From: an uncultured Clostridia bacterium
GTDB taxonomy: Bacteria > Bacillota > Clostridia > Christensenellales > Borkfalkiaceae
Length of the DNA stretch: 49,960 nucleotides
Assembly (NCBI GenBank): GCA_944363645.1
Contig: CALVUR010000009.1
Coordinates: forward strand, 1 to 49,960
Reading direction: 5' to 3'
The notes under the pieces were generated by a model. That model worked only from the letters and a program-made list of their open reading frames with translations. It was not told the DNA's origin and searched no databases. This document shows, in pieces, positions 3,688 through 44,984 of the stretch. The first letter of the stretch is position 1, and each line of letters starts with the position of its first letter. Both the position numbers and the translations under genes were made by a program.

Positions 3688-3715
3688 AAAAAAGTCCGCC
3701 TATAAGCCCGTTATT
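3688..3715 (+). repeat. dispersed palindromic repeat, copy 1 (partial)
   Basis: Left arm AAAAAAGT and core CCGCCTATAAGCCCGTTAT match the family; the right arm has diverged. Intergenic. It is the leftmost copy in the window, only about 320 bases after the transposase remnant. Confidence 0.85.
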
Positions 3716-3783
3716 TGGATATTTTTGACAAAAAAAGGCGAATAAAAAGGTAATATAATAATTGTAAAATGAGTAAAAAATTG

Positions 3784-3812
3784 TTGACATATCAACATTA
3801 ACATTTTATAAT
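3784..3812 (+). promoter_or_regulatory. promoter of the DegV-family gene
   Basis: Consensus sigma-A promoter: TTGACA (3784-3789), 17-base spacer, TATAAT (3807-3812), 70 bases before the start codon. Confidence 0.85.
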
Positions 3813-3882
3813 TTTAGCATAGTTACTAAGAGAGCGTTTTAAAATTTGTAACTAAATTTAATTACAAAATTGAAGGTATAAG

Positions 3883-4797: not shown

Positions 4798-4845
4798 AAA
4801 AAAGTGCGTTTATGGCCGATAATCGACCTATAGACGCACTTTTTT
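4798..4845 (-). repeat. dispersed repeat, copy 2, acting as bidirectional terminator
   Basis: Arms AAAAAAGTGCGT (4798-4809) and ACGCACTTTTTT (4834-4845) form a perfect stem. The loop contains a variant of the family core read on the minus strand (CTATAGGTCGATTATCGG). It sits between the convergent degV and copA genes with a T-run on each strand, so it probably ends both transcripts. Confidence 0.85.
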
Positions 4846-7558: not shown

Positions 7559-7595
7559 AAAAAGTCCGCCTATAAGCCCGTTATCGCCACTTTTT
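7559..7595 (+). repeat. dispersed repeat, copy 3 (full 37 bp)
   Basis: Complete copy: arm AAAAAGT, core CCGCCTATAAGCCCGTTATCG, arm CCACTTTTT. It is intergenic, between csoR and copA (both minus strand), and could attenuate transcription from csoR into copA. Confidence 0.92.
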
Positions 7596-9809: not shown

Positions 9810-9816
9810 GGAAAAT

Positions 9817-16358: not shown

Positions 16359-16395
16359 AAAAAGTCCGCCTATAAGCCCGTTATCGCCACTTTTT
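16359..16395 (+). repeat. dispersed repeat, copy 4 (full 37 bp)
   Basis: Intergenic copy identical over its length to the one at 7559, although it lies about 9 kb away. It comes 50 bases after the hypA terminator. Confidence 0.93.
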
Positions 16396-17414: not shown

Positions 17415-17456
17415 TGGTCAAAAGTCGGGCTATAGGTCGGTTTTTGACCATTTTTT
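17415..17456 (+). terminator. terminator built on a dispersed-repeat variant (copy 5)
   Basis: The outer stem TGGTCAAAA / TTTTTGACCA is followed by TTTTTT, 20 bases after the ZIP gene stop. The loop carries a family variant core (AAAGTCGGGCTATAGGTCGG). The repeat itself spans about 17418-17449. Both readings, terminator and repeat copy, are supported. Confidence 0.8.
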
Positions 17457-17585: not shown

Positions 17586-19313
17586 ATGAAAAATTACAAA
17601 GGGCAACTTAAGTTTCTTCAAATAATTGGCATGACCGCCCTTATATGCACAGTGCTTTTGTGGGCAATGCTCTGGGTTTCTTCCGCAATGAACAACAGTT
17701 TAAGTGGCGAACTCACAAGTGCCGTAACTAGTTTTATCGATAACGTATTCGGCGTAACCGATAAAATTGAAAACGAACTCGTTACCCAGTCGGTAAATTT
17801 AAAGGGCGATTTTAAGGATAGTTACACAATAGGCGAAACGCTTAAATTAAATGTGGCATATTTTCCTGAAAACACCCGTGATAAAGATATTGTTTTTTCG
17901 GTCGCAGACGACATTTTGGATATCGCTGATGATGGCGTAGTAACTTTTAAAAAGCGTGGTACTACAATGATTAAAGTAACGCTTAAAAGCAATACTGCTG
18001 TACAAGATAAAATTGCAGTTATCTGCGTTGGCGAAAATGTACTTGACGAAAATCATCCAGAGCGTCTAAAGTTAAGTTTTGAAAAAGATCCTGCGCTTAA
18101 CGACGATCAAATACCGCAGTGCCAAACCCGTTTGCTTTTGTTAAATGATGACAAAACCGATTCAAATATTGCAACATACACTTCTTCAAATGAAGATATC
18201 GCAGCCGTTGTTCAAGGTAGGGTGTACGCCCGTCAGCCGGGTACGGCAACAATTACCGCAACTATCGGCACAGGCGATAATATAAAAAACATTGACTTTG
18301 TTGTCAACGTAACCCCAAGCGAAAATAAACCTATTACAAGTTTAAATATCGCTGAAGATTTAACCCTTTACGAGTTTCAAGAAATTGAAGACTACCGCAC
18401 TTTATTTGAAATAAGTCCCGACAAACAGTTAAAAGATTATGAATGTTTTATTACGGTAAGTAACCCAAGCATTTTAAACATCAATGGTTATATCTTAATA
18501 GCAAAAGATGTGGGCGAAGGCACCGTTACATTTAGGTCTGCTTTCAATAATGATTTGGTCATAACAAAAAAACTCAAGGTTGATTATCGTCAGCCAAACT
18601 ATCTTACTATTGTCGGCGACGACAAAATTATGCCACACACAAAGCATACATACACAGGCGAGCATGAACCAAGGGAATACAGCGACATGGTAGAATGGTA
18701 TATCGTAAGCGGTAATGCCACAATAGACGAAGACGGCACACTCGTTGCAAATGGCTATGGCAAAGTTGTCATTCGCTGTCAAAGTTTAATCGATAGCGAC
18801 ATTTACACTGAAAAAACTGTTAAAGTTGTGCTATTTTCAAGTGCCTACATGTTTGTGCGTAAACTTATGGGACATGCAGGACTTTCTGCACTTTTGGGCT
18901 TTGGCATTTTGGCAACACTATTTTTTAATTGTAAACATAAATGGCTTTGTTTAACCGCCCCTGCTTTTGCATTTATCTATGCCGGCGTATCCGAATTTAT
19001 CCAGTTACTAACACCTGGTAGGGTGTGCTTATGGTCGGATGTTTTGGTAAACTTTACAGGCACGGTTTTTGGCATGGCAATCTCTGTTTTCATTATTGCA
19101 TTACTGCTATTTATTTGGTGGCTTGTCGGCAAAAACGGCTTTAAAAAATTTGTTTTCGTTCTTAAAAACTTCAACATTACCAATATGTATAGCAAGAAAA
19201 AGGTCGCAAAAGTTTTTGAAAAAATAAAAGAAAATGAAGATGAAAACGCAAAGATAAGTGAAGAAATAAGCCTTCAGGAAGTCGCTTCAACCGATATAGA
19301 TAAAAAAGAGTAA
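17586..19313 (+). CDS. membrane protein with Big_2-like domains and a C-terminal VanZ-like domain
   Basis: 575 residues. An N-terminal membrane anchor (about 12-34) is followed by about 380 extracellular residues of beta-rich bacterial-Ig-like (Big_2) repeats (motifs such as IADDGVVTFKKRGTTMIKV and AAVVQGRVYARQPGTATIT). The C-terminus has about three to four membrane helices with the VanZ signature SEFIQLLTPGRVCLWSDVLVN near 465-487. VanZ was named for low-level teicoplanin resistance; most VanZ-like proteins have no proven role. A cytoplasmic glutamate/lysine-rich tail closes the protein. The Ig/VanZ join is uncommon to my knowledge. A repeat copy begins at the stop codon. Confidence 0.8.
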   Translation: MKNYKGQLKFLQIIGMTALICTVLLWAMLWVSSAMNNSLSGELTSAVTSFIDNVFGVTDKIENELVTQSVNLKGDFKDSYTIGETLKLNVAYFPENTRDKDIVFSVADDILDIADDGVVTFKKRGTTMIKVTLKSNTAVQDKIAVICVGENVLDENHPERLKLSFEKDPALNDDQIPQCQTRLLLLNDDKTDSNIATYTSSNEDIAAVVQGRVYARQPGTATITATIGTGDNIKNIDFVVNVTPSENKPITSLNIAEDLTLYEFQEIEDYRTLFEISPDKQLKDYECFITVSNPSILNINGYILIAKDVGEGTVTFRSAFNNDLVITKKLKVDYRQPNYLTIVGDDKIMPHTKHTYTGEHEPREYSDMVEWYIVSGNATIDEDGTLVANGYGKVVIRCQSLIDSDIYTEKTVKVVLFSSAYMFVRKLMGHAGLSALLGFGILATLFFNCKHKWLCLTAPAFAFIYAGVSEFIQLLTPGRVCLWSDVLVNFTGTVFGMAISVFIIALLLFIWWLVGKNGFKKFVFVLKNFNITNMYSKKKVAKVFEKIKENEDENAKISEEISLQEVASTDIDKKE

Positions 19314-19347
19314 AAGTGGCGATAACGGGCTTATAGCCCCACTTTTT
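19312..19347 (-). repeat. dispersed repeat, copy 6, abutting a stop codon
   Basis: Begins inside the TAA stop of the VanZ gene. Arms AAAAGTGG / CCACTTTTT and inner GGGCTTATAGCCC stem make a strong two-tier hairpin, so it probably terminates this transcript. Confidence 0.93.
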
Positions 19348-19410: not shown

Positions 19411-19447
19411 AAAAAGTGCTGATTTCGGGCTTATAGCCCCACTTTTT
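19411..19447 (-). repeat. dispersed repeat, copy 7
   Basis: Second copy in the same intergenic region, 63 bases after copy 6, with the same right half (GGGCTTATAGCCCCACTTTTT minus its last base) but an altered left half (GTGCTGATTTCG). Confidence 0.9.
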
Positions 19448-22356: not shown

Positions 22357-22788
22357 ATGGGGGCTGAATATTTAATTATAGACAAGTCAATATTACCAGA
22401 ATATTTTGAATTGGTCTTAAAAGCAAAAAGTTTAGTTGAAGATGAAAACAAAAGTGTAAGTTTTGCTTGTAAAGAAACGGGCATAAGCCGTTCAACATTT
22501 TATAAGTATAAAGATAAAATCTTTAAAACTTCTCAAACTTACGGCAAAAAAATAATTTTAACTATGAAGTTATCTGATGCCGCTGGCGTATTAAGCAACA
22601 TCATGCAAGACATTTACGCATACGGTGGCAACATTATTACAATAAACTCAACACAGCCTATCAACAGTGTTGCATTTATCACAATCGTTATTGACGTAAG
22701 CAACTTAATCATCGATACTCAACAACTTATTAAAGAGTTCAAAACTATCAGCCACGTAAAAAGCGCAAACATCGTCGCAGTAGAATAA
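22357..22788 (+). CDS. pheB: PheB-type ACT domain protein (UPF0735)
   Basis: The 143-residue protein has an N-terminal helix-turn-helix-like part (about 24-50: SVSFACKETGISRSTFYKYKDKIF) and a C-terminal ACT domain (about 65-143: LTMKLSDAAGVLSNIMQDIYAYGGNI). This is the UPF0735/PheB layout. ACT domains sense amino acids; PheB homologues are often beside homoserine dehydrogenase or aspartate kinase. Here aspartate kinase follows, with a repeat copy between. A role in feedback control of the aspartate pathway is inferred from position. AAGGGG precedes the ATG. Confidence 0.85.
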   Translation: MGAEYLIIDKSILPEYFELVLKAKSLVEDENKSVSFACKETGISRSTFYKYKDKIFKTSQTYGKKIILTMKLSDAAGVLSNIMQDIYAYGGNIITINSTQPINSVAFITIVIDVSNLIIDTQQLIKEFKTISHVKSANIVAVE

Positions 22789-22822
22789 AAGTGGCGATAA
22801 CGGGCTTATAGGCGGACTTTTT
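22787..22822 (-). repeat. dispersed repeat, copy 8, abutting a stop codon
   Basis: Starts within the TAA stop of the ACT gene (22786-22788). It reads as the exact reverse complement of the 7559 and 16359 copies apart from one terminal base. Likely terminator. Confidence 0.93.
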
Positions 22823-22899: not shown

Positions 22900-23946
22900 A
22901 TGCTCAAAGTATGTAAGTTCGGTGGTACAAGTTTAAAAGATGCAAACAGTTTTTTAATTGTTAAAAATATTGTCAAAGGGGATATGTTCCGCAAAATTGT
23001 GGTTGTTTCAGCCCCCGGTAAGCGTTTTAAAGGCGATTATAAGGTAACCGATTTACTTTTAAGTTATTATAATGATCAGCAAAATTTAAGGGTAAAACGC
23101 CAAATAAAACAAAGGTTTATTGATATCGTAAATGGGCTTAATATCGATATAGATTTAAAGAAAGAGTTTGAAAAGATTTTTGATGTTAAGGGTAAAAGTA
23201 AAGATTATGTTGTAAGCCGTGGCGAATATCTAACGGCAAAAATAATGGCAAAAATATTAAACTTTAAGTTTATCGATGCCGAAAACATTTTGCACTTTAA
23301 AGGTGATAAAATAAATGTTAAAAAGGGGATAAATTTAGCAAAGAAAATAGACTATAATTGCGGTATAGTTGTGCCCGGTTTTTATGGTAAAAAAGGTAAA
23401 AATATTAAACTTTTTTGCCGTGGCGGAAGCGATTTAACAGGTAGTTATTTATCACGCTTTTTTAAAGCAGAAATTTATGAAAATTTTACCGATATTTGCG
23501 GTATAAGTATGATAAATCCAAATTTAAAATTACCGCTAAAATTTATCAAAAATTTAAGTTTTAATGACTTCAAAAATTTAAAGGGCTTAAACCCATCAGT
23601 TTTACAAAAGTCAGCCTATAAGCCCATTAAACGCACAAATTGTAGCATTTTTATCAAAAATACCTTTAATATAAACGGCAATTTTACAAGGATAAAAAGA
23701 AAATTAAAAATTAAAAAACCAACCATTTTTTCAATTAGTTATAACAATAATTTGCTTATAGTTACCGGCAGAAAATTGACAAAAAAAGATGGCTTACTAA
23801 AAAAGGTAAAAGCCATCTTAAAAGATAAAAATATTAAGTTTAAAGTGGTTAAAAAACGTGCAAATGTTTTAATGTTTTTGGTTAAAAATTATAGCGAACT
23901 TTATATGGTAAAACTAATGTATTTTAAACTTGTTTTAAATAGGTAA
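22900..23946 (+). CDS. aspartate kinase, divergent and short
   Basis: 348 residues. The start CKFGGTSL, VSAPGKR, and FCRGGSDLTGSYLSRFFKAE...YTDICGI-like segment identify the amino-acid kinase domain of aspartokinase, which phosphorylates L-aspartate at the head of lysine/threonine synthesis. C-terminal ACT modules are abbreviated (usual length is 400-450). The protein is very lysine/asparagine-rich. At about residues 236-244 the dispersed repeat is translated as QKSAYKPIK, in the stretch where other aspartokinases have a conserved VLHP-type motif before KNTFN; here it is VLQKSAYKP. Activity is therefore uncertain. It overlaps the convergent dapB by 12 bases. Confidence 0.85.
   Translation: MLKVCKFGGTSLKDANSFLIVKNIVKGDMFRKIVVVSAPGKRFKGDYKVTDLLLSYYNDQQNLRVKRQIKQRFIDIVNGLNIDIDLKKEFEKIFDVKGKSKDYVVSRGEYLTAKIMAKILNFKFIDAENILHFKGDKINVKKGINLAKKIDYNCGIVVPGFYGKKGKNIKLFCRGGSDLTGSYLSRFFKAEIYENFTDICGISMINPNLKLPLKFIKNLSFNDFKNLKGLNPSVLQKSAYKPIKRTNCSIFIKNTFNINGNFTRIKRKLKIKKPTIFSISYNNNLLIVTGRKLTKKDGLLKKVKAILKDKNIKFKVVKKRANVLMFLVKNYSELYMVKLMYFKLVLNR
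23606..23630 (+). repeat. dispersed repeat, copy 9, inside aspartate kinase
   Basis: AAAAGTCAGCCTATAAGCCC, read in frame as K-S-A-Y-K-P; the right arm is eroded. It shares the flank TTTTAC before the arm with the copy inside trmK. Confidence 0.85.
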
Positions 23947-24624: not shown

Positions 24625-24642
24625 AACTATCTCAAAATATAT

Positions 24643-27206: not shown

Positions 27207-27938
27207 ATGCCAAATAACGCTTATTCAGCACTTGCCGAAATTTATGAAAAGGTTATAATAGACAGCGAATACAAAAAGTGGAAAGATTACATTGTCGATC
27301 TTGTAAAAGAGTATTCAACTGGCAATAAAGGCATAGATATGGCTTGCGGAAGCGGTTATTTTACTCGTGCCTTATCAAAAAATGGCTTTGATATCGAAGG
27401 CGTTGATTTAAGTGTAGATATGCTTAACGAGGCAACACGTTTGGCTCGGCAAGAGCATTTAAATATAAGTTTCCGTCAGGGCGATATTTTGTCAGTAAAA
27501 AGTTTTAAAAAAGTGGACTTTATCACCATAATTAACGACGGAATCAACTACATACCCCCACTTAAACTCGAAAAAGCCTTTAAAAACCTTTACGGACTGC
27601 TAAATAAAAACGGTGTTTTAATCTTTGATATATCTTCAAAATATAAACTTGAAAATGTGCTTGGCAACAACATTTTTGCCGAAGATAACGAAAATTTAAC
27701 TTATGTTTGGTTTAACAAACTTTTCGATGACTGTGTTGAAATGGATTTGTCTGTTTTCACAAAAAAAGGCGATATGTATCAAAAAAAGGAAGAAAGCCAA
27801 ACACAGTACATTCATACGGTCGAAAATATAACCGAAAATTTAAAAAAGTCGGGCTATAGGACCGTTATCGCACAAAATCACATGCAAAAAAATCTTACAA
27901 ACGACGCATTAAGGGTACAATTTATTGCAATAAAATAG
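27207..27938 (+). CDS. class I SAM-dependent methyltransferase
   Basis: 243 residues with motif I (IDMACGSGYFTRALSKNGF, near 46), the acidic end of strand 2 (VEGVDLS-like, near 68) and FIT-INDGINYI where motif IV is expected. The substrate is unknown. Near residues 212-222 the dispersed repeat is translated as KKSGYRTVIAQ. It ends 8 bases before hslO and shares its direction, so it probably leads the hslO operon. A GGGGG-containing ribosome-binding site precedes the ATG. Confidence 0.85.
   Translation: MPNNAYSALAEIYEKVIIDSEYKKWKDYIVDLVKEYSTGNKGIDMACGSGYFTRALSKNGFDIEGVDLSVDMLNEATRLARQEHLNISFRQGDILSVKSFKKVDFITIINDGINYIPPLKLEKAFKNLYGLLNKNGVLIFDISSKYKLENVLGNNIFAEDNENLTYVWFNKLFDDCVEMDLSVFTKKGDMYQKKEESQTQYIHTVENITENLKKSGYRTVIAQNHMQKNLTNDALRVQFIAIK
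27842..27880 (+). repeat. dispersed repeat, copy 11, inside the methyltransferase
   Basis: AAAAAAGTCGGGCTATAGG, then ACCGTTATCGCAC; right arm eroded. Translated in the same frame (K-S-G-Y-R-T-V-I-A) as the copies in dnaG and trmK. Confidence 0.85.
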
Positions 27939-28813: not shown

Positions 28814-30482
28814 GATAGTTTTTTACAAATCTACAAGGGAAAGCCAAATAAATCTTGCTATAAGAAGGCGTAGCGAAAATGACTTTATTGGCGCTCTTAA
28901 CATATTAAAATACCTTACCGAAATAAACCCTAAAGACTATGAGTGTTACGAACTTATGGCAAAGGTTTATATGGATATGGAATATTATCGGCTTGCACTT
29001 TCGCAGTGGTTCAAGTTTTTAAACATTTGTCCCAAAAGGGAATGGGCAAACGCCTATAACGGTATCGCAACTTGCTTTTTATATCTTGATAACCTCCACT
29101 TGGCTGGGTATTATTACGACATGCAGTTAGGCATTGCCCCCGATAAAGAGTTTGACTACACCGACGAACTTTACGATTATATCGACTTTGTAAAGGGTGG
29201 TGAAGAACCTGAATTTTACATCACTTACCCTTACGAAAAAATGTCTGTTGAACGGCGACTTGAACTCAGCGACGAACTAATTTTTAAGGATCCAAAAGAA
29301 TACTTAACGGTATTAAATTCTATCGATGTAAACGACGAAAAATACATTGAAGCACAAACTCGCATCGTCGCTTTTTACATTTTAAACAACAAAATCAACA
29401 AGGCAAAAAAGGTCATTAACGGGCTTATAGCCCAATTTCCTGACGAACCGCTCGTAAAAATTGTACACTTTATGCTCCTTGCCGAAATGGATGATTTAGA
29501 TAACGCAATCCCCGTTTTAGAAAGTTTAAAAGATGTGCAATTTACAAGTTACATGGACAGTTTAAAGGTCGCAACCGAGTGTATGGCGCTTGGGCTTTAC
29601 AGCAACGCTAAACATTATTGTGAAATCACTTTAAACCTAAAGCCTTACTCAATCATGGGACTTTTCACAATGGGCGCAATCTGCTTTAACATGGGCGATT
29701 ACGAGCAGGCAGAAAAGTACTTTTTGCTCAACTTCCAGTTGACGGGTATCAGCACAGTTAAGTACTATCTTGACATAACAAAAAACCCAAAACAACGCAC
29801 AAAAATAGGCAATATATTGCCAAAGTTGAAACTTCCTGAAAGTGTTGCCAAAGCCTATCTTGTAAAAATTTTAAAGTACACAAATCAAGGCTTCCCAAAA
29901 ATTACAAACAAAAACATTCAAACAATGTTTTTATTGTTCGATTTTATCGCATCTTTTCCAAACAATGCCTACAAGCAGTTTATCGATGGTTTAGTTGGCA
30001 CAAAAAACAAGGCAGTCATAAGTTTTTTAAAGGACAAACTTTTAGACAGTGAACTTAACGATGAAATCAAGTACACCATTTTAGAAGGACTTGTTATAAA
30101 CGATTTTGACGGCAAAATCAGCGTTGTCCATAGCGGTATTTTCAACAAAACAAGGTTATTTGTTTTAAAAGATTTTGAACGCAAAGGCGAACAAAATATA
30201 ATAAAAACCGCACACGCAAAAGCACTTGCGAAAGTAAGCACGTTTGCCGGCTTTGACACAAAAGCACTTGAAATTTCCGCAAGGGTAATTTACCAAAAAT
30301 TGTGCGAAAATGGTAACATATTAAAGGTGGAAAATTTAAAAGCATTAGCCCTTGCTATTGCGCTTTCGGTGGACAATGTGTACACTTCTCAACGTGCAAT
30401 CATGACAAGTTATTTTGGCACAGATAAAAAATCTTTAAATACAGTTTTAAAATTGATTAAGGCAAAACATGTTGATAGTTGA
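28800..30482 (+). CDS. TPR-repeat protein
   Basis: 560 residues, soluble, with tetratricopeptide-like helical pairs over about 15-110 (ALNILKYLTEINPKDYECYE; NAYNGIATCFLYLDNLHLAGYYY) and 180-330 (AEKYFLLNFQL). The C-terminal half is helical without clear repeats. No catalytic motif. It overlaps hslO and the next gene (14 bases each), so this is a tightly coupled operon. A partial dispersed-repeat copy near residues 204-213 is read as VINGLIAQF. Function unknown; a scaffold role is inferred. Confidence 0.75.
   Translation: MEKSKIVFYKSTRESQINLAIRRRSENDFIGALNILKYLTEINPKDYECYELMAKVYMDMEYYRLALSQWFKFLNICPKREWANAYNGIATCFLYLDNLHLAGYYYDMQLGIAPDKEFDYTDELYDYIDFVKGGEEPEFYITYPYEKMSVERRLELSDELIFKDPKEYLTVLNSIDVNDEKYIEAQTRIVAFYILNNKINKAKKVINGLIAQFPDEPLVKIVHFMLLAEMDDLDNAIPVLESLKDVQFTSYMDSLKVATECMALGLYSNAKHYCEITLNLKPYSIMGLFTMGAICFNMGDYEQAEKYFLLNFQLTGISTVKYYLDITKNPKQRTKIGNILPKLKLPESVAKAYLVKILKYTNQGFPKITNKNIQTMFLLFDFIASFPNNAYKQFIDGLVGTKNKAVISFLKDKLLDSELNDEIKYTILEGLVINDFDGKISVVHSGIFNKTRLFVLKDFERKGEQNIIKTAHAKALAKVSTFAGFDTKALEISARVIYQKLCENGNILKVENLKALALAIALSVDNVYTSQRAIMTSYFGTDKKSLNTVLKLIKAKHVDS
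29411..29437 (-). repeat. dispersed repeat, copy 12 (core only), inside the TPR gene
   Basis: TTAACGGGCTTATAGCCCA keeps the core in reverse orientation; both A/T arms are eroded. It is read as I-N-G-L-I-A. Weakest accepted copy. Confidence 0.65.
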
Positions 30483-31281
30483 TATTGATAAATTATTTAA
30501 AAGTTTCGCAACTGAATATATTAAAGAAAACAAAGAAAAGATAAATGGTGGCGAAGATGATGCTGAAAGTTTATATACAGCATTCCAAAACACCCACTTT
30601 GCAACTTTAAACGGCAAAACACCACTTACTTTTTATCAAGATTGCGATGATTTAATCGCTGTTTTATTAGAGCATTTTAATCAAAACGTGCCGGTAAGCG
30701 ATTATCTTATCGAAGCCTTAATGCACCACGGCGATGAAGATAGATTGACTGAACTTTTAAGTGATGATAAGCCAGAAGATTTATTGCTTATTTTAATCGA
30801 AGTCTTATCCCATCAAAATTCAAAAAAGTGCGTTAATCGACTTATAGCCCTACTTTTTAGCCAAAACTGTAGCGAAAAAGTAAAAGATTCATGTGCAGAA
30901 TATTTAGAAGATTTTGATGTTTTAGACCAACTTTTATCATATTGCGAAAACCAAAAAGCAAACCCATCTGTTTGTTATTTATTGTCAAAACAAAAGCAAA
31001 ACAGCACCGTTTCAAAAATACTTCAAACTGAATTTTTAAATAACCTTGATAGGGCGCAAGAATACGCTTCGTATTTGGAAAATTATGGCGACGAAAGTGC
31101 TGTTGAAATTTTACAAAAAGGGCTTACTATGGTCAATGATTATGTAAGTTTTAAAGAAATCAGTATCGCCATCGAAGCGTTAGGCGGTACGGTTAGCGAA
31201 AAGCGTGATTTTACCACCGATAAAAATTATATAAAGATTCACGAGGCTTCAAAAAATGAGCATAAAACTGACAACAAGTGA
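30469..31281 (+). CDS. HEAT-like helical repeat protein
   Basis: 270 residues, all-helical, acidic, with leucine-rich pairs (LTELLSDDKPEDLLLILIEVLS; VNRLIALLF; AVEILQKGL) suggesting HEAT-type repeats. No membrane segment or active site. It overlaps the TPR gene upstream by 14 bases and the DUF1963-like gene downstream by 26 bases. A dispersed-repeat copy at residues 119-130 is read as KKCVNRLIALLF. Function unknown. Confidence 0.68.
   Translation: MLIVDIDKLFKSFATEYIKENKEKINGGEDDAESLYTAFQNTHFATLNGKTPLTFYQDCDDLIAVLLEHFNQNVPVSDYLIEALMHHGDEDRLTELLSDDKPEDLLLILIEVLSHQNSKKCVNRLIALLFSQNCSEKVKDSCAEYLEDFDVLDQLLSYCENQKANPSVCYLLSKQKQNSTVSKILQTEFLNNLDRAQEYASYLENYGDESAVEILQKGLTMVNDYVSFKEISIAIEALGGTVSEKRDFTTDKNYIKIHEASKNEHKTDNK
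30822..30858 (-). repeat. dispersed repeat, copy 13, inside the HEAT gene
   Basis: Both arms (AAAAAAGTG, TACTTTTT) remain, with core TTAATCGACTTATAGCCC. Read in the only stop-free frame of the reverse orientation (C-V-N-R-L-I-A-L-L-F). Confidence 0.85.
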
Positions 31282-32057: not shown

Positions 32058-32095
32058 AAAAAGTCCGCCTATAAGCCCGTTATCGATAGATTTTT
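32058..32095 (+). repeat. dispersed repeat, copy 14
   Basis: AAAAAGT with core CCGCCTATAAGCCCGTTATCG; the right arm is altered (ATAGATTTTT). Intergenic, between the tRNA terminator and the bioY terminator. Confidence 0.9.
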
Positions 32096-33048: not shown

Positions 33049-34875
33049 ATGCCTGATCAAAATTTTCAAAAATTTATAGAGGAATTAAAAAGTCGAAACG
33101 AAATTGTCGAAGTAGTTTCGGCATACTGCCAGCTTGAAAGAAGGGGTGGTGGATATTGGGCATGCTGTCCGCTTCCTGGACACATGGAAAAAACACCATC
33201 TTTTTGCGTAAACCAAGCGGGGCAGTTTTTTAAATGTTTCGGCTGTCAGCGTGGGGGCGACGTAATCACTTTCATTATGGAAGTTGAAAGTCTATCCTAC
33301 ATGGAAGCCGTTAAATTTTTGGCTAATCGTGCCAACATGGATCTTCCTGAACTATCTTATAAGGATGATTGGAAGGTTGACGAAAACGCAAAAAACCGTG
33401 AAACAAGACTAAAAATTTTAAAAGACACCGCTCGTTTTTATGTAAGCAATCTCTCTAAGCCAGAGGGCGCACCATATTTAGAATATATCTATAAACGTGG
33501 CTTTGATCAAACGACAATCCGCACCTTTGGGCTTGGTTGTTCAACTGACTATAAATCACTTCCCAAATATTTAAGGGAAAAGGGCTACTCTTACGAAGAC
33601 ATGTTAAGTTGTGGCGTAGTATCATACAATAAGGATACGCAAGAATACAGCGACTTTGAAGCCCACCGCATGATTGTCCCCATTATAGACAGTTTTTCAA
33701 ACGTAATCGCCTTTGGCGGTAGGGTAATTGAAAAAACCGACTTTGCAAAATACAAAAACACCCGTGAAACAAGCGTGTTTGTAAAAAACCGTGCGCTGTT
33801 TAACGCAAACAACATTAAAAAATTAAAGCGTGAAATGGGCACTTTGCCATATGTAATTTTGGTTGAAGGCTACATGGATGTAATCGCTTTACACACCGCC
33901 GGCATAAAAAACGCAATCGCAAGCATGGGTACATCGCTCACCGTAGAGCAAGCAAGACTAATTTTAAGATATTCTGATACAGTAATCGTAAGTTACGATG
34001 GCGACGCCGCAGGTCAAAAAGCAACCTTTAGGGGTATGCAAATTTTAAAGGATGCTGGGCTAAATGTCAAAGTAATTGCAATTCCTGACAACATGGACCC
34101 AGACGAATATATTAAGGCAAAGGGCGTTGATGCTTATAAAGATTTGTTGCTTGAAGCCCAGCCTTTAATCGATTATAAATTGCAATATTTAACTAAAACT
34201 TTCAACATAAACGACACGGTTGAACGCCGTAAATTTTTGGATAAAGCATTGCAAGTTATACTTGAAAGTGATAAAGAATTTGAGCGTGAAGAACTTTTAA
34301 GAAAACTCAGCCAAATCACAAAAATCACTTATGAATCACTTAAACGAGATTTAGACCAGACTTCGCAAAAGTCCGCCTATAAGCCCGTTATCGCACCAAG
34401 ACAGCCCGAAATTCATACCGATGATGAGCCTGATTCAGCACTTATCAAAGCAGAAAGGCTTGTTTTATCGGCGATACTAAACGGCGTAAGTTACGCAAAA
34501 ATTAACGACTTAGTTGGACTTGAATTTTCTTCCCAAATAAGAAGCGAAATTGCATCAACAATTTTGATGCTTGCAGAAGAAAACAAGCAAATATCTGCTT
34601 CAATCGTTACGCACATTTTGGGCGAAGAATATTACACCGAACTAAACAACATATTAAGTTTGATAGATATCGGTTTAGGAGAAAGGAAGTCCGATATTTT
34701 ATACTATGAAGACTGTGTAAAGTTTATCAAAATGACCAATTTAGAAACTGATATACAGTACTTAAAAGACTATGCAGTAAACGAAACTGACGTAAAGCGT
34801 CAACTTTTCGCAATAACCAAAATTAGAGATAAACAAAACGAGTTACATAAACTCAAAACGGAGGATAAATTATGA
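33049..34875 (+). CDS. dnaG: DNA primase
   Basis: 608 residues. The CHC2 zinc domain has Cys40, His45, Cys63, Cys66 ([13 protein letters not shown]...CFGC), with two extra residues between the first Cys and His compared with the common CPFH form. The catalytic core follows ([47 protein letters not shown] near 323-331). A C-terminal helicase-binding region lies after 465. The dispersed repeat sits at residues 440-449 ([10 protein letters not shown]), in the linker between core and C-terminal domain. DnaG makes primers for the lagging strand. The stop overlaps the rpoD ATG by 4 bases. Confidence 0.96.
34367..34396 (+). repeat. dispersed repeat, copy 15, inside dnaG
   Basis: AAAAGTCCGCCTATAAGCCC then GTTATCGCACC, translated K-S-A-Y-K-P-V-I-A. 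It sits in the interdomain linker, where an insertion should be tolerated. Confidence 0.9.
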
Positions 34876-35924: not shown

Positions 35925-36592
35925 TGACTAAACGAATTGAAAAAATAACATCGCTTTTATCGGGCGGTGAAAGTTTTGCTGACGTTGGCTGCGATCACGG
36001 CTATGTTAGCCAATATGTGCTTGATAATAAGTTATATAATAAGGTTTACGTAACCGATATATCAAAGCCAAGTTTAGATAAAGCAATCAATCTTTTAAAC
36101 GAAAATCACGGCGGAAAATTCACACCAATTTTAACCGATGGGTTAAAAAATGTACCCTATTGCGACACTGTCGTAATTGCCGGTATGGGCGGTGAAGAAA
36201 TTATCAAAATTTTACAAAAGTCCGCCTATAAGCCCGTTATCGCCATATTACAGCCCATGAAAAACGATGAAAAACTTCGAAAATTTTTACATCAAAGCGG
36301 TTATGGGCTTGATGTTGACTACATGTTTTACGACGATAATAAGTATTATCACTTAATGCGTGCAGTCCTTGATTTAAAAGATTGTTATACCGAAAAAGAA
36401 GAAACTTACGGTAGGGGTAATTTAAGTGGCAACGAAGATTTTATTCTGTATTTAGAAGGTAAAATCAACGAAACCCAAAAATTGCTTGAAGAAAAAAATT
36501 TGCAACAAACATCACGTAAACAATTAACACAAAGACTTGAAACTTTGAGAGGATTGAAAGATGAAATTAAGAGAGATTTACGAGTTGATTGA
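35924..36592 (+). CDS. trmK: tRNA (adenine22-N1)-methyltransferase TrmK
   Basis: 222 residues with the SAM motif ADVGCDHGYVSQYVL near 18, the family hallmark DTVVIAGMGGEEIIKIL near 81 and ILQPM near 107. The enzyme methylates A22 of certain tRNAs. Between those last two motifs the dispersed repeat encodes [10 protein letters not shown], so the repeat supplies the helix-to-strand turn and part of the strand. It starts on the last base of the rpoD stop and overlaps nif3 by 32 bases. Confidence 0.92.
   Translation: MTKRIEKITSLLSGGESFADVGCDHGYVSQYVLDNKLYNKVYVTDISKPSLDKAINLLNENHGGKFTPILTDGLKNVPYCDTVVIAGMGGEEIIKILQKSAYKPVIAILQPMKNDEKLRKFLHQSGYGLDVDYMFYDDNKYYHLMRAVLDLKDCYTEKEETYGRGNLSGNEDFILYLEGKINETQKLLEEKNLQQTSRKQLTQRLETLRGLKDEIKRDLRVD
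36216..36246 (+). repeat. dispersed repeat, copy 16, inside trmK
   Basis: AAAAGTCCGCCTATAAGCCC then GTTATCGCCA. It has the same sequence and reading frame as the dnaG copy 1.8 kb away (K-S-A-Y-K-P-V-I-A), though the two proteins are unrelated. Confidence 0.92.
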
Positions 36593-38513: not shown

Positions 38514-39833
38514 ATGGCAGCATTTTCATCATTAGGCGAAAAACTCAATCACGTGTTTTCAAAACTTACAAAGCGTGGAAAACTTACTGAACTTGAGATA
38601 AAACAAGCAATGCGTGAAATTCGTATTGCGCTTTTAGAGGCTGACGTTAATATCAAGGTTGCAAAAGACTTTATCAATTCGGTTTCTGAAAAGGCAGTAG
38701 GTCAAGACATTTTAAAAAGTCTTAATCCTACCCAACAAGTTATCAAAATTGTTAATGAAGAATTGATCGCTTTAATGGGCGGTCAAAACCAAAAGTTAGA
38801 AGTCGCACCAAAGCCACCCACAGTCATTATGATGTGCGGTTTGCAAGGTGCCGGTAAAACAACATTATCCGGTAAACTTGCATTGTTACTTAAAAAGCAG
38901 GGCAAAAAACCCTTGCTTGTTGCGTGCGACGTATATAGACCTGCCGCTATAAAACAACTCATGGTTGTTGGTGAAAAGGCAGGCGTTCAGGTTTTTGAAA
39001 AGGGACAAGGCGATCCTATTAAAATCGCCAAAGAAGGTATTGATTACGCAAACAAGTTTGGTTTAGATACGGTAATTATCGACACCGCCGGTAGGCTTGA
39101 AATCGATGACAACCTTATGACCGAACTTGAAAATATCAATTCAGCCGTTTCCCCAACAGAAATTTTACTCGTTGTCGACTCAATGACAGGTCAAGTTGCC
39201 GTAAACGTTGCCGAAGGCTTTTCTTCAAGGCTTCCAATAACGGGCGTTGTACTTACAAAACTTGACGGCGACACAAGGGGTGGTGCGTGCTTATCAGTTA
39301 AAGCGGTAACCGGTAAACCCATTAAGTTCTGTGGCGTTGGCGAAAAACTTACCGACATTGAACCTTTCTATCCCGACCGTATGGCAAACAGAATTTTGGG
39401 CATGGGCGATGTATTGACGCTCATTGAAAAGGCCCAAGAAGCCATAAAGGAAGAAGATGCGAAAAAACTTGAAAAGAAGTTAAGGGAAAACAATTTTGAT
39501 TTAAACGATTATTTAGAGCAAATCGAAATGTTAAAAAAGATGGGTGGCGCAAGTGCCGTAATGTCAATGATGCCGGGCATGGGTAAACTTAAAGTTAAAG
39601 ACGGCGATGTTGACGAGCAAGAGATTTACCGCATGAAGGCAATCATCCAGTCAATGACACAAAAAGAAAGACGCAATCCCCAAATCATTAACTATTCAAG
39701 GAAGATGCGTATCGCTAAAGGTAGCGGTACTTCACTTCAACAAATTAACGCACTTTTAAAGCAGTACGAACAAATTAAAGTAATAATTAAGCAAATGAAA
39801 AACAACAAAGGGAGGCTTCCCTTTAAATTCTAA
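38514..39833 (+). CDS. ffh: signal recognition particle protein Ffh (SRP54)
   Basis: 439 residues: N domain (1-85), G domain with P-loop GLQGAGKTTLSGKL near 108, DTAGR near 188, TKLDGD near 246, and the methionine-rich M domain with MMPGMG near 353 and the RNA-binding helix GSGTSLQQINALL near 404. It targets nascent membrane proteins to the translocase. A repeat copy starts inside the stop codon and probably terminates or attenuates transcription before rpsP. Confidence 0.97.
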   Translation: MAAFSSLGEKLNHVFSKLTKRGKLTELEIKQAMREIRIALLEADVNIKVAKDFINSVSEKAVGQDILKSLNPTQQVIKIVNEELIALMGGQNQKLEVAPKPPTVIMMCGLQGAGKTTLSGKLALLLKKQGKKPLLVACDVYRPAAIKQLMVVGEKAGVQVFEKGQGDPIKIAKEGIDYANKFGLDTVIIDTAGRLEIDDNLMTELENINSAVSPTEILLVVDSMTGQVAVNVAEGFSSRLPITGVVLTKLDGDTRGGACLSVKAVTGKPIKFCGVGEKLTDIEPFYPDRMANRILGMGDVLTLIEKAQEAIKEEDAKKLEKKLRENNFDLNDYLEQIEMLKKMGGASAVMSMMPGMGKLKVKDGDVDEQEIYRMKAIIQSMTQKERRNPQIINYSRKMRIAKGSGTSLQQINALLKQYEQIKVIIKQMKNNKGRLPFKF

Positions 39834-39868
39834 AAAGTGGCGATAACGGGCTTATAGCCCCACTTTTT
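39832..39868 (-). repeat. dispersed repeat, copy 17, abutting the ffh stop
   Basis: Begins within the TAA stop (39831-39833). Full two-tier palindrome: arms AAAAAGTGG / CCACTTTTT, inner stem GGGCT-tat-AGCCC. Confidence 0.94.
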
Positions 39869-41090: not shown

Positions 41091-41764
41091 GAATTGATAT
41101 TTTAACGCTTTTCCCCGAAATGTTCGCACCCCTTAATGAAAGCATTATCGGTAGGGCACAAAAGGGCGAAAAGGTTCAAATCGTGGTTACCAATATACGT
41201 GATTACGCAACCGACAAGCACAAACGTTGCGATGATTATCCTTTTGGTGGCGGCGCAGGTATGGTCATGATGGTCGAACCTGTTGCAAACGCAATCGAAA
41301 GTTTAGATCCCAACCATCAAGCCTTGCGTATTTATATGTCCCCAAAGGGTAAAACCTTTTCGCAAAAACATGTTGCACGCATCTTAACGCATGACCGTAT
41401 TTTAATTTTGTGTGGGCATTATGAAGGTATCGACCAAAGAATAATCGATTTATATATTGATGAAGAAATGTCAATCGGCGATTATGTTTTGACCGGCGGT
41501 GAATTACCAGCAATGGTCATAACCGATGCAATTTGTAGATACGTAGACGGCGTTATCAGTAAAGATTCTTTAAAAAATGAAACTTTCACCGACAACTTGG
41601 TTGAATACCCACAATACACTCGTCCGCAAGAATTTAAAGGTTTAAAAGTGCCGGATGTACTACTTTCTGGCAACCATCAAGAAGTAGATAAATGGCGACT
41701 TAATGAGTCAATTAAACTCACAAAAAAGTTGCGTCCAGACCTTATTGAAAATGATAAAAAGTAG
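41075..41764 (+). CDS. trmD: tRNA (guanine37-N1)-methyltransferase TrmD
   Basis: 229 residues of the knotted SPOUT fold: DILTLFPEMF at the N-terminus, YPFGGGAGMVMM near 54, the SAM-binding knot LCGHYEGIDQR near 112 and SIGDYVLTGGELPAM near 134. The predicted protein starts MSLPMRIDIL; the second Met (41087) is the family's usual start. The last codons and TAG stop (41762-41764) lie inside a dispersed repeat. Unusually, rplS does not follow. Confidence 0.96.
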   Translation: MSLPMRIDILTLFPEMFAPLNESIIGRAQKGEKVQIVVTNIRDYATDKHKRCDDYPFGGGAGMVMMVEPVANAIESLDPNHQALRIYMSPKGKTFSQKHVARILTHDRILILCGHYEGIDQRIIDLYIDEEMSIGDYVLTGGELPAMVITDAICRYVDGVISKDSLKNETFTDNLVEYPQYTRPQEFKGLKVPDVLLSGNHQEVDKWRLNESIKLTKKLRPDLIENDKK

Positions 41765-41792
41765 CGATAACGGGCTTATAGCCCCACTTTTT
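41756..41792 (-). repeat. dispersed repeat, copy 18, supplying the trmD stop codon
   Basis: AAAAAGTAGCGATAACGGGC then TTATAGCCCCACTTTTT. It differs from copy 17 by one base, G to A in GTGG, and that change makes the TAG that ends TrmD. It occupies the place where rplS is expected. Confidence 0.93.
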
Positions 41793-42044: not shown

Positions 42045-42929
42045 ATGCGCAATAACGATATGCAAATAAATGAAAAAGGCTTTACCACGGGCGGTATAAA
42101 TTGGTTCCCCGGTCATATGGCAAAAGCCATTAAGATGATGGAAGAAAACATAAAACTTTGCGATGCTTGTATTTATGTTTTGGATGCCCGTGCCCCTTTT
42201 GCTTGCATAAATAAAAAACTAAATGAAGTTTGTAAAAATAAACCGATACTTTATGTAATCAATAAAATTGACCTAATAGAGCAAAGTGATTTACAGCAAA
42301 TTCTCAATCATTTTAGGACTAATAATTGCAAAGTTATCACCACCGTCGGCACAAGTTTAAAGGACGGAAAGTCGGTCTATAGTACCGTTATCGACCTTTT
42401 AAGTGAAAAAATTGCCAGCAAAAAAGCAAAGGGTATCACAAAAGCAGTAAGGGTTATGGTGTGCGGTATTCCTAACACGGGTAAAAGCACAATCATCAAT
42501 TCTTTAAGCGGTAGAAAACAAGCACAAACGGGCGATAAGGCTGGTGTTACACGTAGTAAACAGTGGATAAAGTTATTTGATATCGAACTTTTAGACACAC
42601 CGGGCACAATGCCACCGGCTATTGAAAATCAAGTTTACGCACGTCATTTGGCGTATATTGGTAGCATAAACGATAACATTTTGGATGTAGAAAGTTTGTG
42701 TTTGGACTTTATAACCGAATTAAGCAAGTACCACAGCGGTATGTTAAACAAAAAATACGGCGTAGATGAAAGTTTACCGCCACTTGAAATTTACGAAGGC
42801 ATTTGTAAGGCACGTGGCTTTTTAATGCGTGGTGGTGACTACGATTACGATAGGTGTGCAAAAGCCGTTTTTGACGATTTTAGAAAAGGTAGGTTGGGTA
42901 AAATATGCCTCGAAAAGTCATCGATTTAG
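42045..42929 (+). CDS. rbgA: ribosome biogenesis GTPase RbgA (YlqF)
   Basis: The ATG at 42045, five bases behind AAAGGTGG, is preferred to a GTG three codons upstream. 294 residues with circularly permuted GTPase motifs: INKIDL near 75 (G4) precedes the P-loop GIPNTGKSTIINSL near 144 (G1) and DTPGT near 186 (G3). The N-terminus has WFPGHMAKA. It acts in late 50S assembly. The dispersed repeat is read near 107-117 as GKSVYSTVIDLL. It overlaps rnhB by 25 bases. Confidence 0.95.
   Translation: MRNNDMQINEKGFTTGGINWFPGHMAKAIKMMEENIKLCDACIYVLDARAPFACINKKLNEVCKNKPILYVINKIDLIEQSDLQQILNHFRTNNCKVITTVGTSLKDGKSVYSTVIDLLSEKIASKKAKGITKAVRVMVCGIPNTGKSTIINSLSGRKQAQTGDKAGVTRSKQWIKLFDIELLDTPGTMPPAIENQVYARHLAYIGSINDNILDVESLCLDFITELSKYHSGMLNKKYGVDESLPPLEIYEGICKARGFLMRGGDYDYDRCAKAVFDDFRKGRLGKICLEKSSI
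42366..42400 (+). repeat. dispersed repeat, copy 19, inside rbgA
   Basis: AAAGTCGGTCTATAGTACC then GTTATCGACCTTTT; diverged but with core spacing kept. Frame gives K-S-V-Y-S-T-V-I, matching the K-S-x-Y-x-x-V-I pattern. Confidence 0.75.
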
Positions 42930-43552
42930 AAACTGAAAAGAAAAAATTACATTACGAATATCAACTTTTGGCAGAAGGCAAAAAGTACATTGCCGGGGTA
43001 GACGAGGTAGGACGTGGTCCACTTTCGGGCCCCGTTGTGTGCGCCGCGGTCATTATGCCCCTTGACGATGAAGATATTATCTTGGGCGTAGACGACAGCA
43101 AAAAGGTAAGCGAAAAAAAGCGCACACTTTTGGCAGAACAAATTAAAAGTAAGGCAATAAGTTACAGCATTTGTCAGGTAGAACACGATAGAATTGACGA
43201 AATAAATATTTTAAATGCCACAAAAGAGTGTATGCTTGAAGCAATCAGTAAACTTGATGTTAAACCAGATGTGGTTTTGATTGACGCACTCGATATCGAT
43301 TGCGGAATAGAAACTCGCCCTATCATAAAAGGTGATGCAAAAAGTTATGTAATCGGTTCTGCATCAATAATTGCAAAGGTTTACCGTGATAATTTGATGG
43401 AAGAATACGATAAAATTTACCCAGGTTACGGCTTTGCAAAAAACAAAGGTTACGGCACAAAAGACCATATAAATGCAATAAGGACAATAGGACCATGCAA
43501 GATACACCGAAAAACTTTTATAAAAAATTTTTGGGCAGACAAGGAGAGTTAA
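42905..43552 (+). CDS. rnhB: ribonuclease HII
   Basis: 215 residues with the catalytic GVDEVGRGPLSGPVV near 31, VDDSKKVSEKKR, and IKGDAKSYVIGSASIIAKV near 138, all typical of RNase HII. It removes RNA from RNA-DNA hybrids and misincorporated ribonucleotides. The 3' end overlaps yraN by 58 bases. Confidence 0.96.
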   Translation: MPRKVIDLETEKKKLHYEYQLLAEGKKYIAGVDEVGRGPLSGPVVCAAVIMPLDDEDIILGVDDSKKVSEKKRTLLAEQIKSKAISYSICQVEHDRIDEINILNATKECMLEAISKLDVKPDVVLIDALDIDCGIETRPIIKGDAKSYVIGSASIIAKVYRDNLMEEYDKIYPGYGFAKNKGYGTKDHINAIRTIGPCKIHRKTFIKNFWADKES

Positions 43553-43857
43553 AAGCCAAAAAATTTTTGCAAAAAAAGGGGTATAAAATTATAGAAACAA
43601 ATTACACCACAAAGTACGGCGAAGTGGACTTAATCGGCTTATACGGCGACTTTTTGGTGTTTATCGAGGTCAAAAATCGCACTACAAAAACTTTTGGTGA
43701 GCCTGTAGAAGCAGTGGACTTTAAAAAGCGAAAACACTACAGAAAGGCCGCAACTTATTTTGTTATGACTCACCCCGAAATAACCCTTCAGCCCCGTTTT
43801 GACGTGGTCGAAGTTTTTAACGATCAAATAAACCATATCGAGGACGCTTTCCAATGA
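43495..43857 (+). CDS. YraN family (UPF0102) putative endonuclease
   Basis: 120 residues with the nuclease-like core GELKAKKFLQKKGYKIIETN, GEVDLIGLYGDFLVFIEVKNR (Glu-Asp-Glu-x-Lys pattern near 42-60) and the family's C-terminal segment RFDVVEVF. Its cellular role is not settled. It overlaps rnhB by 58 bases and the next gene by 4 bases. Confidence 0.92.
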   Translation: MQDTPKNFYKKFLGRQGELKAKKFLQKKGYKIIETNYTTKYGEVDLIGLYGDFLVFIEVKNRTTKTFGEPVEAVDFKKRKHYRKAATYFVMTHPEITLQPRFDVVEVFNDQINHIEDAFQ

Positions 43858-44984
43858 TAATATCCGTTTCAAGTGCATCGGGCATAGAAGCCGCAACCAA
43901 GCGTGAACTTTTACAACTCAGTGTAGAAAAAGCCCCTGCAATAAATGGAAGAATGAATTTTGAAGGGGATTACGATTTACTTACAAAATGTAATATACAT
44001 CTTTCAACGGCAAGTCGAATTTTCATTGTGCTTGCTCAGTTTAAATGCACCGATTTTGATACGCTTTTTGATAACGTTATCGATATCGATTGGGAAACTT
44101 ATTTGCCTGAAAACGCTCAAATTTTGGTTAAGCCAAAACTTGTTGAAAGCAAACTTAACGCCTTTTCCGCTACACAGTCGGTTACTAAAAAAGCCATTTG
44201 CGAAAGACTTAAAAAGGTGTATAAGTGTGAGTATTTAAAGGAAACAGGTCATCAGTTTACCGTCGAAATCGCTATCACGCACGACTTTTGCACGGTTTTA
44301 TTAAACGCATCTGGCGAAAGTTTACATAGGCGTGGTTACCGTAATATTTACGGCGAAGCGCAGTTAAAAGAAAACCTTGCTGCAAGCATGTTAGAACTTT
44401 CTGTTTGGAACGAATTTAGACCGCTTTGCGACTTGTTTACCGGCACGGGCACAATCGCAATAGAAGGCGCAATGAAGATAAAACACATTGCACCGGGGCT
44501 TAATCGCAACTTTGATTTTACCCACTTCAAAAATTACGATAACAAGATACTCGAAAATGTCAAAAGTGAGGCTATAGGTCGAATATTGACACAAAATCTA
44601 CCAAAAGTCGAAGCATATGACATCGATGAAAAGCAGTTAAATATTGCCAAAATTCATGCTAAAAACGCTGGCGTTGACGATATTGTGCAATTCCATTTAA
44701 AGTCTATGGAAACTTTTGTTTCTGATAAAAAACGTGGCGTAGCGTTTGCAAATCCGCCTTACGGCGAAAGGTTAGAAGACAGACCGTATATTGAAAAACT
44801 TTACCGCACCTATGGCAAGGTAAGAAAGGCTAACCCCGATTGGTGTTTTTATACAATTACGCCGGTTAGCGACTTTGAAAGACTTTTTGGCACTCGTGCG
44901 GATAAAAAGCGTAAACTTTATAATGGTAGGATAGAGTGTTGTTTTTACGCTCATCTTGGCAAGCCCCAAACCCCAAAAAATTAA
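43854..44984 (+). CDS. THUMP-domain class I RNA methyltransferase (RlmL N-terminal/YpsC type)
   Basis: 376 residues: a THUMP RNA-binding region (about 50-155, ending HRRGYR), then a Rossmann methyltransferase with LCDLFTGTGTIAIEGAMKI near 190, YDIDEKQLNIAK near 257 and the catalytic ANPPYGERLED near 302. The NPPY motif fits N2-guanine methylation of 23S rRNA (RlmL-like). A repeat copy near 236-247 reads KSEAIGRILT. It is the last gene of the run; a terminator follows at 45049. Confidence 0.92.
   Translation: MIISVSSASGIEAATKRELLQLSVEKAPAINGRMNFEGDYDLLTKCNIHLSTASRIFIVLAQFKCTDFDTLFDNVIDIDWETYLPENAQILVKPKLVESKLNAFSATQSVTKKAICERLKKVYKCEYLKETGHQFTVEIAITHDFCTVLLNASGESLHRRGYRNIYGEAQLKENLAASMLELSVWNEFRPLCDLFTGTGTIAIEGAMKIKHIAPGLNRNFDFTHFKNYDNKILENVKSEAIGRILTQNLPKVEAYDIDEKQLNIAKIHAKNAGVDDIVQFHLKSMETFVSDKKRGVAFANPPYGERLEDRPYIEKLYRTYGKVRKANPDWCFYTITPVSDFERLFGTRADKKRKLYNGRIECCFYAHLGKPQTPKN
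44560..44597 (+). repeat. dispersed repeat, copy 20, inside the RNA methyltransferase
   Basis: CAAAAGTGAGGCTATAGGTC then GAATATTGACACAAAA; arms and right core are eroded. It is read in the other open frame (K-S-E-A-I-G-R-I-L-T). Weak copy and the rightmost in the window. Confidence 0.6.

Follow-up and report, generated by a model that had tools for sequence, protein, structure and literature searches.

A helically phased, dispersed sequence element of Clostridia as a predicted DNA-wrapping site at gene ends and within genes

Uptake sequences have been described in the Pasteurellaceae (uptake signal sequences, USS) and the Neisseriaceae (DNA uptake sequences, DUS), strong gyrase sites are known singly or as degenerate motifs, and Rickettsia palindromic elements are inserts. 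The subject of this study is a short dispersed element with an imperfect dyad that shares traits with all three, and which recurs along a stretch of 49,960 nucleotides from an uncultured Clostridia bacterium of the Borkfalkiaceae (contig CALVUR010000009.1), referred to below as the window. The genome of the window is coded G000 and the window itself is its contig C9; the other genomes are coded in the same way and the genera as g1, g2, g7, g8, g9, g14, g16 and g17. On average, the element lies in the middle of about 280 bp in which AT and GC are helically phased, in coding copies too, and it likely marks spots of wrapping of the chromosome around a protein.

For the uptake sequences, an association with terminators (PMC1852404), dialects (PMC3630211), and AT tracts together with under-representation in coding sequence (PMC7811141) are described in the available portions of these papers. 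The gyrase motif of Escherichia coli has a centre from -16 to 19 and symmetrical flanks that extend to -63 and 66 with a GC periodicity of 10.75 bp, and an enrichment of cleavage sites is seen 3' of highly transcribed operons and within BIME-2 (bacterial interspersed mosaic elements), according to the accessible text (PMC6379681). In the parts of two preprints that were available, the cleavage preferences of gyrase are species-specific, with -4G/+8C consistent across all enzymes of the set (PMC12324340), and wrapping is helped by phased flanks (PMC12393610). The Clostridia element resembles USS and DUS in its hundreds of copies on both strands, in coding and intergenic DNA, and in its terminator association, in-frame peptides, species dialects and AT tracts beside the core. 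With strong gyrase sites, the BIME-2 and repetitive extragenic palindromic (REP) sequences of enterobacteria, and the strong gyrase site (SGS) of phage Mu, it has in common a block of about 35 bp, near-symmetrical phased flanks, a position 3' of genes and the lack of an orientation bias. The Class A flexible patterns behind the 11-bp genome periodicity likewise show about 11 bp in coding and non-coding DNA (PMC1242344, accessible part), but the periodicity of the element is anchored on one specific sequence. In the literature covered, which most subscription papers lay outside, no such element is reported in Clostridia.

With up to 3 mismatches allowed, the window contains 14 matches to the core TATAAGCCCGTTATCG, nine of them exact, where shuffling expects 0.42 (largest value 3). 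A position-weight model (PWM), iterated on 449,960 bases of G000 (the window and 20 stretches), identified 187 elements, about one per 2,400 bases, and none in the reversed, uncomplemented sequence. In general terms, the element reads AAAAGTnnGnCTATARGYCSRTTATCG and continues in a T-tract, and the right arm of the dyad is weaker in coding copies. In the whole of G000 (1,495,896 bases, 13 contigs), a search for the core with up to 2 mismatches yields 313 matches and 0 in the control, and the longer pattern AAAAGTNNNNCTATARGYCSRTTA at the same tolerance gives 224 + 245 on the two strands against 0 + 1, which is the over-representation on both strands by which USS and DUS are recognised. The copies are thus not confined to the window (313 and 469 matches genome-wide); such confinement had been named in the first-pass annotation of this DNA as speaking against a dispersing element. 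A sample of 489,960 bases contains about one element per 2.5 kb, extrapolating to about 600 per genome. Separately trained models found 197 elements in G000, 219 in G001 and 35 in G006 (reversed controls 0, 0 and 1), with an information content of the 60-position model of about 46, 35 and 37 bits, respectively.

Among 297 genomes of the order, a draw that contained no g1, g2 or g14 genome besides G000, only G000 was above background, and 24 others had one match each. In a survey of 51 chosen genomes of the family (controls 0 to 2 per genome), the matches ranged from 43 to 469 in g1 (seven genomes), from 105 to 278 in g14 (three genomes) and from 5 to 185 in g2 (15 genomes, with G118 and G124, at 5, close to background); the one g16 genome had 12 and the remaining 25 genomes had 0 to 4. 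Core-only scoring of smaller samples is consistent with this range of genera. In an RpoD tree, G002 lies outside the six other g1 genomes (99/96), with the order of g2, g7 and g14 unresolved. A de novo word search made element words prominent in G000 and G001 only, with nothing comparable in the g7, g8 and g17 samples and minor words only in g9; these negatives weigh little because the same search overlooked the element in samples of G002, g2 and g14 that hold it. Exact matches to one element pattern in viral contigs numbered 0, in a set from which records near G000 were possibly left out. In g9, which is without the main element (G014, loci L164-L173), eight degenerate core matches were seen in 199 kb (reversed 0), likewise flanked by phased AT (n = 8). 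The 11-mers of AAAAAACTCTCAC, a different element, occur 9-10 times in the same 199 kb against 0.1-0.4 expected.

Around the elements, the AT content peaks about once per helical turn, well beyond the modelled region. The amplitude for 411 copies of G000 and G001 is 0.118 at 20-53 bp, 0.094 at 42-75, 0.066 at 64-97, 0.054 at 86-119 and 0.038 at 108-141 bp (null 95%: 0.012-0.016), and the 189 coding copies give 0.116, 0.112, 0.080, 0.066 and 0.049 in the same five bins (null 0.017-0.024). Beyond about 140 bp, the phasing is weaker and near noise. The best period of the flanks is 11.5-11.7 bp, and that over 60 bp on each side, core included, is 10.5-10.75 bp. Sites matched for the local AT pattern reach only 0.016-0.046 at 32-62 bp, as opposed to 0.094-0.129 for the elements; the match of these controls to the core pattern is poorer in G000 (4.87 vs 6.62) and nearly equal in G001 (4.32 vs 5.02). 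If only positions -10 to 16 are scored, the flanks lie above the null 95% in eight of the nine genomes measured, namely G000, G001, G006, G004, G002, G019, G014 (n = 8) and, narrowly, G024, and not in G039 (n = 9); G012 and G013, with one hit each, were left out of this measurement. In eight genomes of g1, g2 and g14, AT is autocorrelated at 11 bp about 2 to 4 times more strongly within 150 bp of an element (element included) than beyond 300 bp; the near value is also high in G012 and G013, where one site each cannot support it. The conserved block spans about 35 bp (motif positions -10 to 25), 17.5 bp on either side of position 7.5, where the inner AT dyad falls in 200 of 200 bootstraps. The flank dyad falls at 8.0 in 172 of 200 bootstraps for 20-62 bp and in 119 of 200 for 20-110 bp. 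The helical phasing around the element is a new result.

In order to follow the origin of the coding copies, the elements in genes (69 in G000, 123 in G001) were aligned with the proteins of G000, G001, G006, G002, G004 and others. Pairs are best matches of at least 35% identity in the sampled DNA, with reciprocity not required; both directions were counted and the pairs are non-independent. Of 124 element/ortholog pairs, 118 were covered (the six uncovered ones were dropped) and 108 of these are gap-free, the gap rate being 10/118 in element windows and 71/604 in random windows of the same genes (p = 0.34). For 44 of the gap-free pairs, the score in the relative is under 5 and an element is thus absent there, so that the gain or loss in these pairs is by substitution. 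The TrmK segment, for example, reads IKILQKSAYKPVIAILQP in G000 and VKILSSSHFLPKKLVLSP in G002. The alignments thus indicate that the coding copies are substitutions in place and not inserts. In addition, the core within genes is conserved at the DNA level. Between G000 and G001, the identity at fourfold-degenerate sites is 50/66 in the core against 809/1976 in the rest of the same genes (p = 3e-8), and that at all third positions is 178/241 against 3691/8809 elsewhere; since the elements were picked on G000 only, the identity in G001 is not built in. Conservation with the host gene, which had been proposed as evidence against a dispersing element if it reached distant relatives, is found within the genus and does not extend that far.

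The element forms dialects. The separately trained consensus is CTATAAGCCcGTTATCg in G000 and CTATAaGcCGaTTAtCg in G001, with G006 intermediate, and CTATARGTCGATTA is favoured by the g14 and g2 copies; motif position 9 is C in G000 (0.62) and G in G001 (0.72). At 22 coding sites with an element in both G000 and G001, six have CG in G000 but GA in G001 and none shows the reverse (p = 0.03), while seven have GA and four CG in both. In G000, motif positions -4, -3 and -1 are coupled, with GG.G in 73 and CC.C in 44 of 197 copies, and they are mixed in G001. This coupling looks like homogenisation or two shape classes.

The placement relative to genes was determined for the 187 elements with a simple caller of open reading frames (ORFs), which gave 358 genes. 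A total of 109 elements are intergenic, 15 lie over a gene end, which is the 3' end in all 15 cases, and 63 lie within genes (30 same-strand, 33 antisense). This corresponds to 124 non-coding elements in about 73 kb against 63 coding ones in about 377 kb. The nearest stop codon lies at a median of 44 bp from the non-coding elements, and their orientation to the gene with that stop codon is the same in 56 and opposite in 68 cases. The 103 typed intergenic elements divide into 80 in tandem (68.4 expected by length), 19 in convergent (10.0) and 4 in divergent spacers (24.7), the shortage in divergent spacers being significant (p = 4e-8). A single reading frame is favoured in 21 of the 30 same-strand and 25 of the 33 antisense coding copies, and the preferred frames yield recurring peptides, e.g. 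KSAYKPVIA and DNGLIAPL. The whole of G000 shows no strand bias (224 vs 245, p = 0.36; counted without reference to replichores), and an oriented signal of the Chi or KOPS (FtsK orienting polar sequence) type was ruled out on the basis of these counts and of the even split in coding copies. Only 18 of 181 gaps are shorter than 500 bp, where 36 are expected at random, and the spacing as a whole shows no excess of evenness over random placement (coefficient of variation 1.17). The longest element-free stretch measures 24.9 kb (L062, G000:C1:160001-180000, and neighbours). It includes an apparent division and cell-wall cluster, as read from N-termini (no family search).

Within the window, the model finds 21 elements, 12 on the plus and 9 on the minus strand, with the first core at 3701 and the last at 44573. 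The first-pass annotation had listed 20 copies, about eight of them minus, of a palindromic core with arms; all 20 places are recovered, the copies at 7559 and 16359 do have the same 37 bases, and one more copy at 43628 (minus) completes the count. The core recurs as claimed, but it is exact in only 9 of the 21 and the dyad is imperfect. Nine of the 21 lie within genes according to our own ORF reading, with Pfam families for the hosts: an amino-acid-kinase-family gene, a methyltransferase, a TPR protein, a weak-HEAT protein, DnaG, TrmK, a ribosome-binding GTPase, UPF0102 and an RlmL-like methyltransferase. Terminator-like hairpins overlap 5 of the 12 non-coding window elements in a scan with loops of up to 8, which longer-loop hairpins escape. 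The copies are as follows (window coordinates, strand, PWM score in brackets).

3689..3725, plus: intergenic, core 3701 (50.7)
4798..4845, minus: intergenic, core 4817, with 12-bp outer arms perfectly complementary in the sequence (40.5)
7559..7595, plus: intergenic, exact core (62.5)
16359..16395, plus: intergenic, exact core, 37-mer identical to that at 7559 (59.8)
17419..17455, plus: intergenic, overlapping a terminator-like hairpin (48.9)
19311..19347, minus: over the 3' end of ORF 17586-19313, exact core, terminator-like (62.0)
19411..19447, minus: intergenic, 100 bp from the 19311 copy, terminator-like (52.5)
22786..22822, minus: over the 3' end of ORF 22357-22788, exact core (55.0)
23605..23641, plus: within the amino-acid-kinase-family gene (22900-23946; Pfam), same strand, peptide KSAYKPIKR (33.7)
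24642..24678, plus: at the 3' end of the minus-strand ORF 24653-25699, by ORF reading (49.0)
27843..27879, plus: within the methyltransferase gene (27207-27938; Pfam), peptide KKSGYRTVIA (45.6)
29405..29441, minus: within the TPR gene (28800-30482; Pfam), antisense (30.0)
30822..30858, minus: within ORF 30469-31281 (weak HEAT match), antisense, peptide VNRLIALLF (42.6)
32058..32094, plus: 3' of tRNA-Glu (31879-31953) and of a separate terminator-like hairpin (31964-32001) (54.5)
34366..34402, plus: within dnaG (33049-34875), peptide KSAYKPVIA; element also in G001 and G006 (37.3)
36215..36251, plus: within trmK (35924-36592), peptide KSAYKPVIA; in alignments, relatives gap-free and the G001 copy in the G001 dialect (52.7)
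39832..39868, minus: over the 3' end of ORF 38514-39833, exact core, terminator-like (62.9)
41756..41792, minus: over the 3' end of ORF 41075-41764, exact core, terminator-like (59.6)
42366..42402, plus: within the ribosome-binding GTPase gene (42036-42929), by alignment (30.7)
43619..43655, minus: the additional element, within the UPF0102 gene (43495-43857), antisense; common to G001 and G006 (24.1)
44561..44597, plus: within the RlmL-like methyltransferase gene (43854-44984); common to G001 and G006 (34.3)

At the GTPase copy, the protein is gap-free in G001, G002, G004, G005 and G006, with a weaker element match in G002 and G004. The element-free part of the window from 1 to 3400, described earlier as GC-richer, carries a mechanosensitive channel gene (1809-2822) and is possibly acquired DNA. 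The ATAA-n-TTAT appearance of the element recalls an Xer/dif-like recombination site, in appearance only.

The genes for DNA uptake were searched in 18 genomes of the family by way of T2SSF, T2SSE and HHH_3, with ComFA, ComFC, CoiA and the pilins outside the search. The pilus platform T2SSF was found in 0 of 18, compared with 13 of 14 control genomes. Partial, weak matches to the pilus ATPase T2SSE occur in 12 of 18, two of them above the cut-off in frames of 289 and 282 aa, and none is full-length. No ComEA was recognisable among the HHH_3 hits, the best of which lie in frames of 723-775 aa, presumably Tex, and the weaker ones in other frames of at least 197 aa. Because the genomes are drafts, this absence is strong for the set and not proof for each genome. 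DprA is present in 18 of 18 and ComEC in 17 of 18 genomes (two overlapping sets), ComEC missing only in G003, which is 61% complete. In G000, comEC is without the C-terminal metallo-beta-lactamase (MBL) domain, and a separate MBL-fold gene lies directly before it (L109:11284-13475, G000:C1). This pair of short comEC and MBL gene (also loci L136-L157) occurs in genomes of g1, g2 and g14, and also of g9 and g17; G012 (g7) and G013 (g8) have a long, apparently fused ComEC, and G002 and G008 have the short form with no MBL neighbour. Among 26 element-bearing genomes, eight are without an MBL match (G002, G003, G005, G021, G035, G071, G118 and G130; several of them incomplete). Since the pair occurs in the element-less g9 and g17 and eight of 26 are without MBL, the split is a weak lead only for uptake.

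Of the three ideas raised in the first pass, namely mobility, uptake tagging and binding of a chromosome-organising protein, the last is the best fit to the helical phasing, wrapping being deduced from sequence. We tentatively predict that the element is a sequence-specific DNA-wrapping site bound by gyrase, i.e. a strong gyrase site. Symmetrical phased flanks around a block of about 35 bp and a position downstream of genes, irrespective of their transcription level, are found, as expected of such a site; over 60 bp on each side the period of 10.5-10.75 bp is like that of the E. coli motif; of the type IIA core at dyad 7.5, -2A, +1G and +6T are present, and +4C in G000 only. Proteins with GyrA, GyrB, ParC and ParE motifs were read in the G000 sample (own reading, no family search). 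The conservation of the core at the DNA level and the dialects are in line with gyrase as well. Several observations, however, weigh against gyrase. At dyad 7.5 the element lacks -4G/+8C, and register 7.5 ranks first among 32 in G000, though its total is negative, and below fourth in G001. A flank dyad at 8.0 also speaks against it, because an enzyme with a 4-bp stagger should not have an odd centre. On phage Mu, the AT template of the element does not pick the SGS: the annotated gyrase cut has a z of 1.1 (rank 5000 of 36518), the best position within 17874-17891 is rank 1583 with the full template, and the flanks alone give rank 9611 at the cut and at best rank 253, at 17890. The phasing outreaches the gyrase footprint of about 66 bp on each side, with a period of 11.5-11.7 instead of 10.75 bp, and the 46 bits in G000 are far above the published degenerate gyrase motif. 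Unlike known gyrase sites, the element also lies within genes, where it evolved in place, and only a few genera carry it, in contrast to the universal gyrase. An element lies 3' of three of five tRNA clusters in G000 and one of five in G001, too few for a test of the link to transcription, and the G006 sample has no cluster. Because of the lacking -4G/+8C, the odd flank centre, the register in G001, the Mu SGS, the long phasing and the high specificity, wrapping by some protein carries more weight than gyrase itself, which by geometry and location is the best single candidate binder. A dedicated clade-specific nucleoid or supercoil-domain protein that wraps the element and organises the chromosome in place of gyrase would fit the same phasing, symmetry and gene-end evidence. 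The high specificity and the restriction mainly to g1, g2 and g14 suit it better than a universal enzyme, and the flank dyad and the absent -4G/+8C point away from type IIA. We regard it as somewhat less probable than gyrase, and no candidate gene was identified, without whole-proteome presence/absence profiling.

That the element is a DNA transfer (uptake) signal like USS or DUS, in which preferential uptake or transfer with recombination would create species dialects by molecular drive, seems unlikely in our analysis. Such a signal would account for the several hundred copies, the non-coding excess, the in-frame coding copies in restricted frames, the scarcity of close pairs, the dialects across genera with orthologous sites that shift accordingly, the lack of matches in viral contigs and the presence of DprA and ComEC; in-place evolution of coding copies combined with species dialects is found here as in USS and DUS. 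The analogy drawn in the first pass therefore holds for dialects, terminators, in-frame copies and missing orientation bias, but not for the known uptake machinery, which was not found in the 18 genomes. ComEC and DprA, moreover, also occur in genomes without the element, and the copies are on the whole not spaced more evenly than at random. The element differs from USS and DUS in its occurrence in Clostridia and its information content. Phased flanks of about 140 bp on either side are without counterpart in USS as described in the available text of PMC7811141. A mobile palindromic element of the MITE (miniature inverted-repeat transposable element), REP or Rickettsia type, inserted at many places, could explain the near-identical 37-mers and the coupled, copying-like sub-types of G000. 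Where only G000 has an element, its spacer exceeds that of the relative by a median of 46 bp (n = 5, vs G001) and 50 bp (n = 2, vs G006), as would be expected from an insertion, compared with 22 and -6 bp for spacers element-less in both genomes. However, this excess is non-significant (p = 0.49 and 0.5), and where G001 alone has the element, it is again the G000 spacer that is longer (median 70, n = 5). Locations are common to species, non-coding G000 elements sharing their syntenic spacer in 10 of 15 cases with G001 and 11 of 13 with G006 (p about 1e-6), and the gap-free windows led us to reject a transposed element for the coding copies; non-coding copies may still be insertions. Rickettsia palindromic elements, with similar short palindrome-like copies in genes and spacers, are inserts and differ in this from the coding copies described here. 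A mobile element is the least credible of the explanations considered. Hardly more credible is that the element is the standard intrinsic terminator of the genome and nothing more. The gene 3' ends and the overlapping hairpins agree with a terminator, whereas the 63 of 187 elements within genes, on either strand, exclude one confined to transcript ends; the even orientation to the nearest gene end and the copy at 32058, which follows a separate hairpin, argue against it as well, and it leaves the phasing unexplained.

Returning to the wrapping site, our tentative picture is one of about 600 dialect-forming sites per genome, each with about 280 bp of phased DNA, that would hold the supercoiled chromosome via gyrase or another wrapping protein. 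The phased DNA would bend around the bound protein. Transcription would pile up positive supercoils at gene ends and draw gyrase there, so the sites could act as fixed points of supercoil relaxation, some intergenic copies may double as terminators, and a species-specific change in the binding protein may pull the core into dialects. A high-information, dialect-forming signal within genes of Clostridia that apparently have no uptake pilus means that the evolutionary pattern of an uptake sequence is separable from uptake. If the wrapping reading is true, these bacteria would provide a natural genome in which wrapping sites, positioned and much alike, number in the hundreds, and in which the control of supercoiling by sequence, the targeting of gyrase and the cost to protein sequence would be directly testable.

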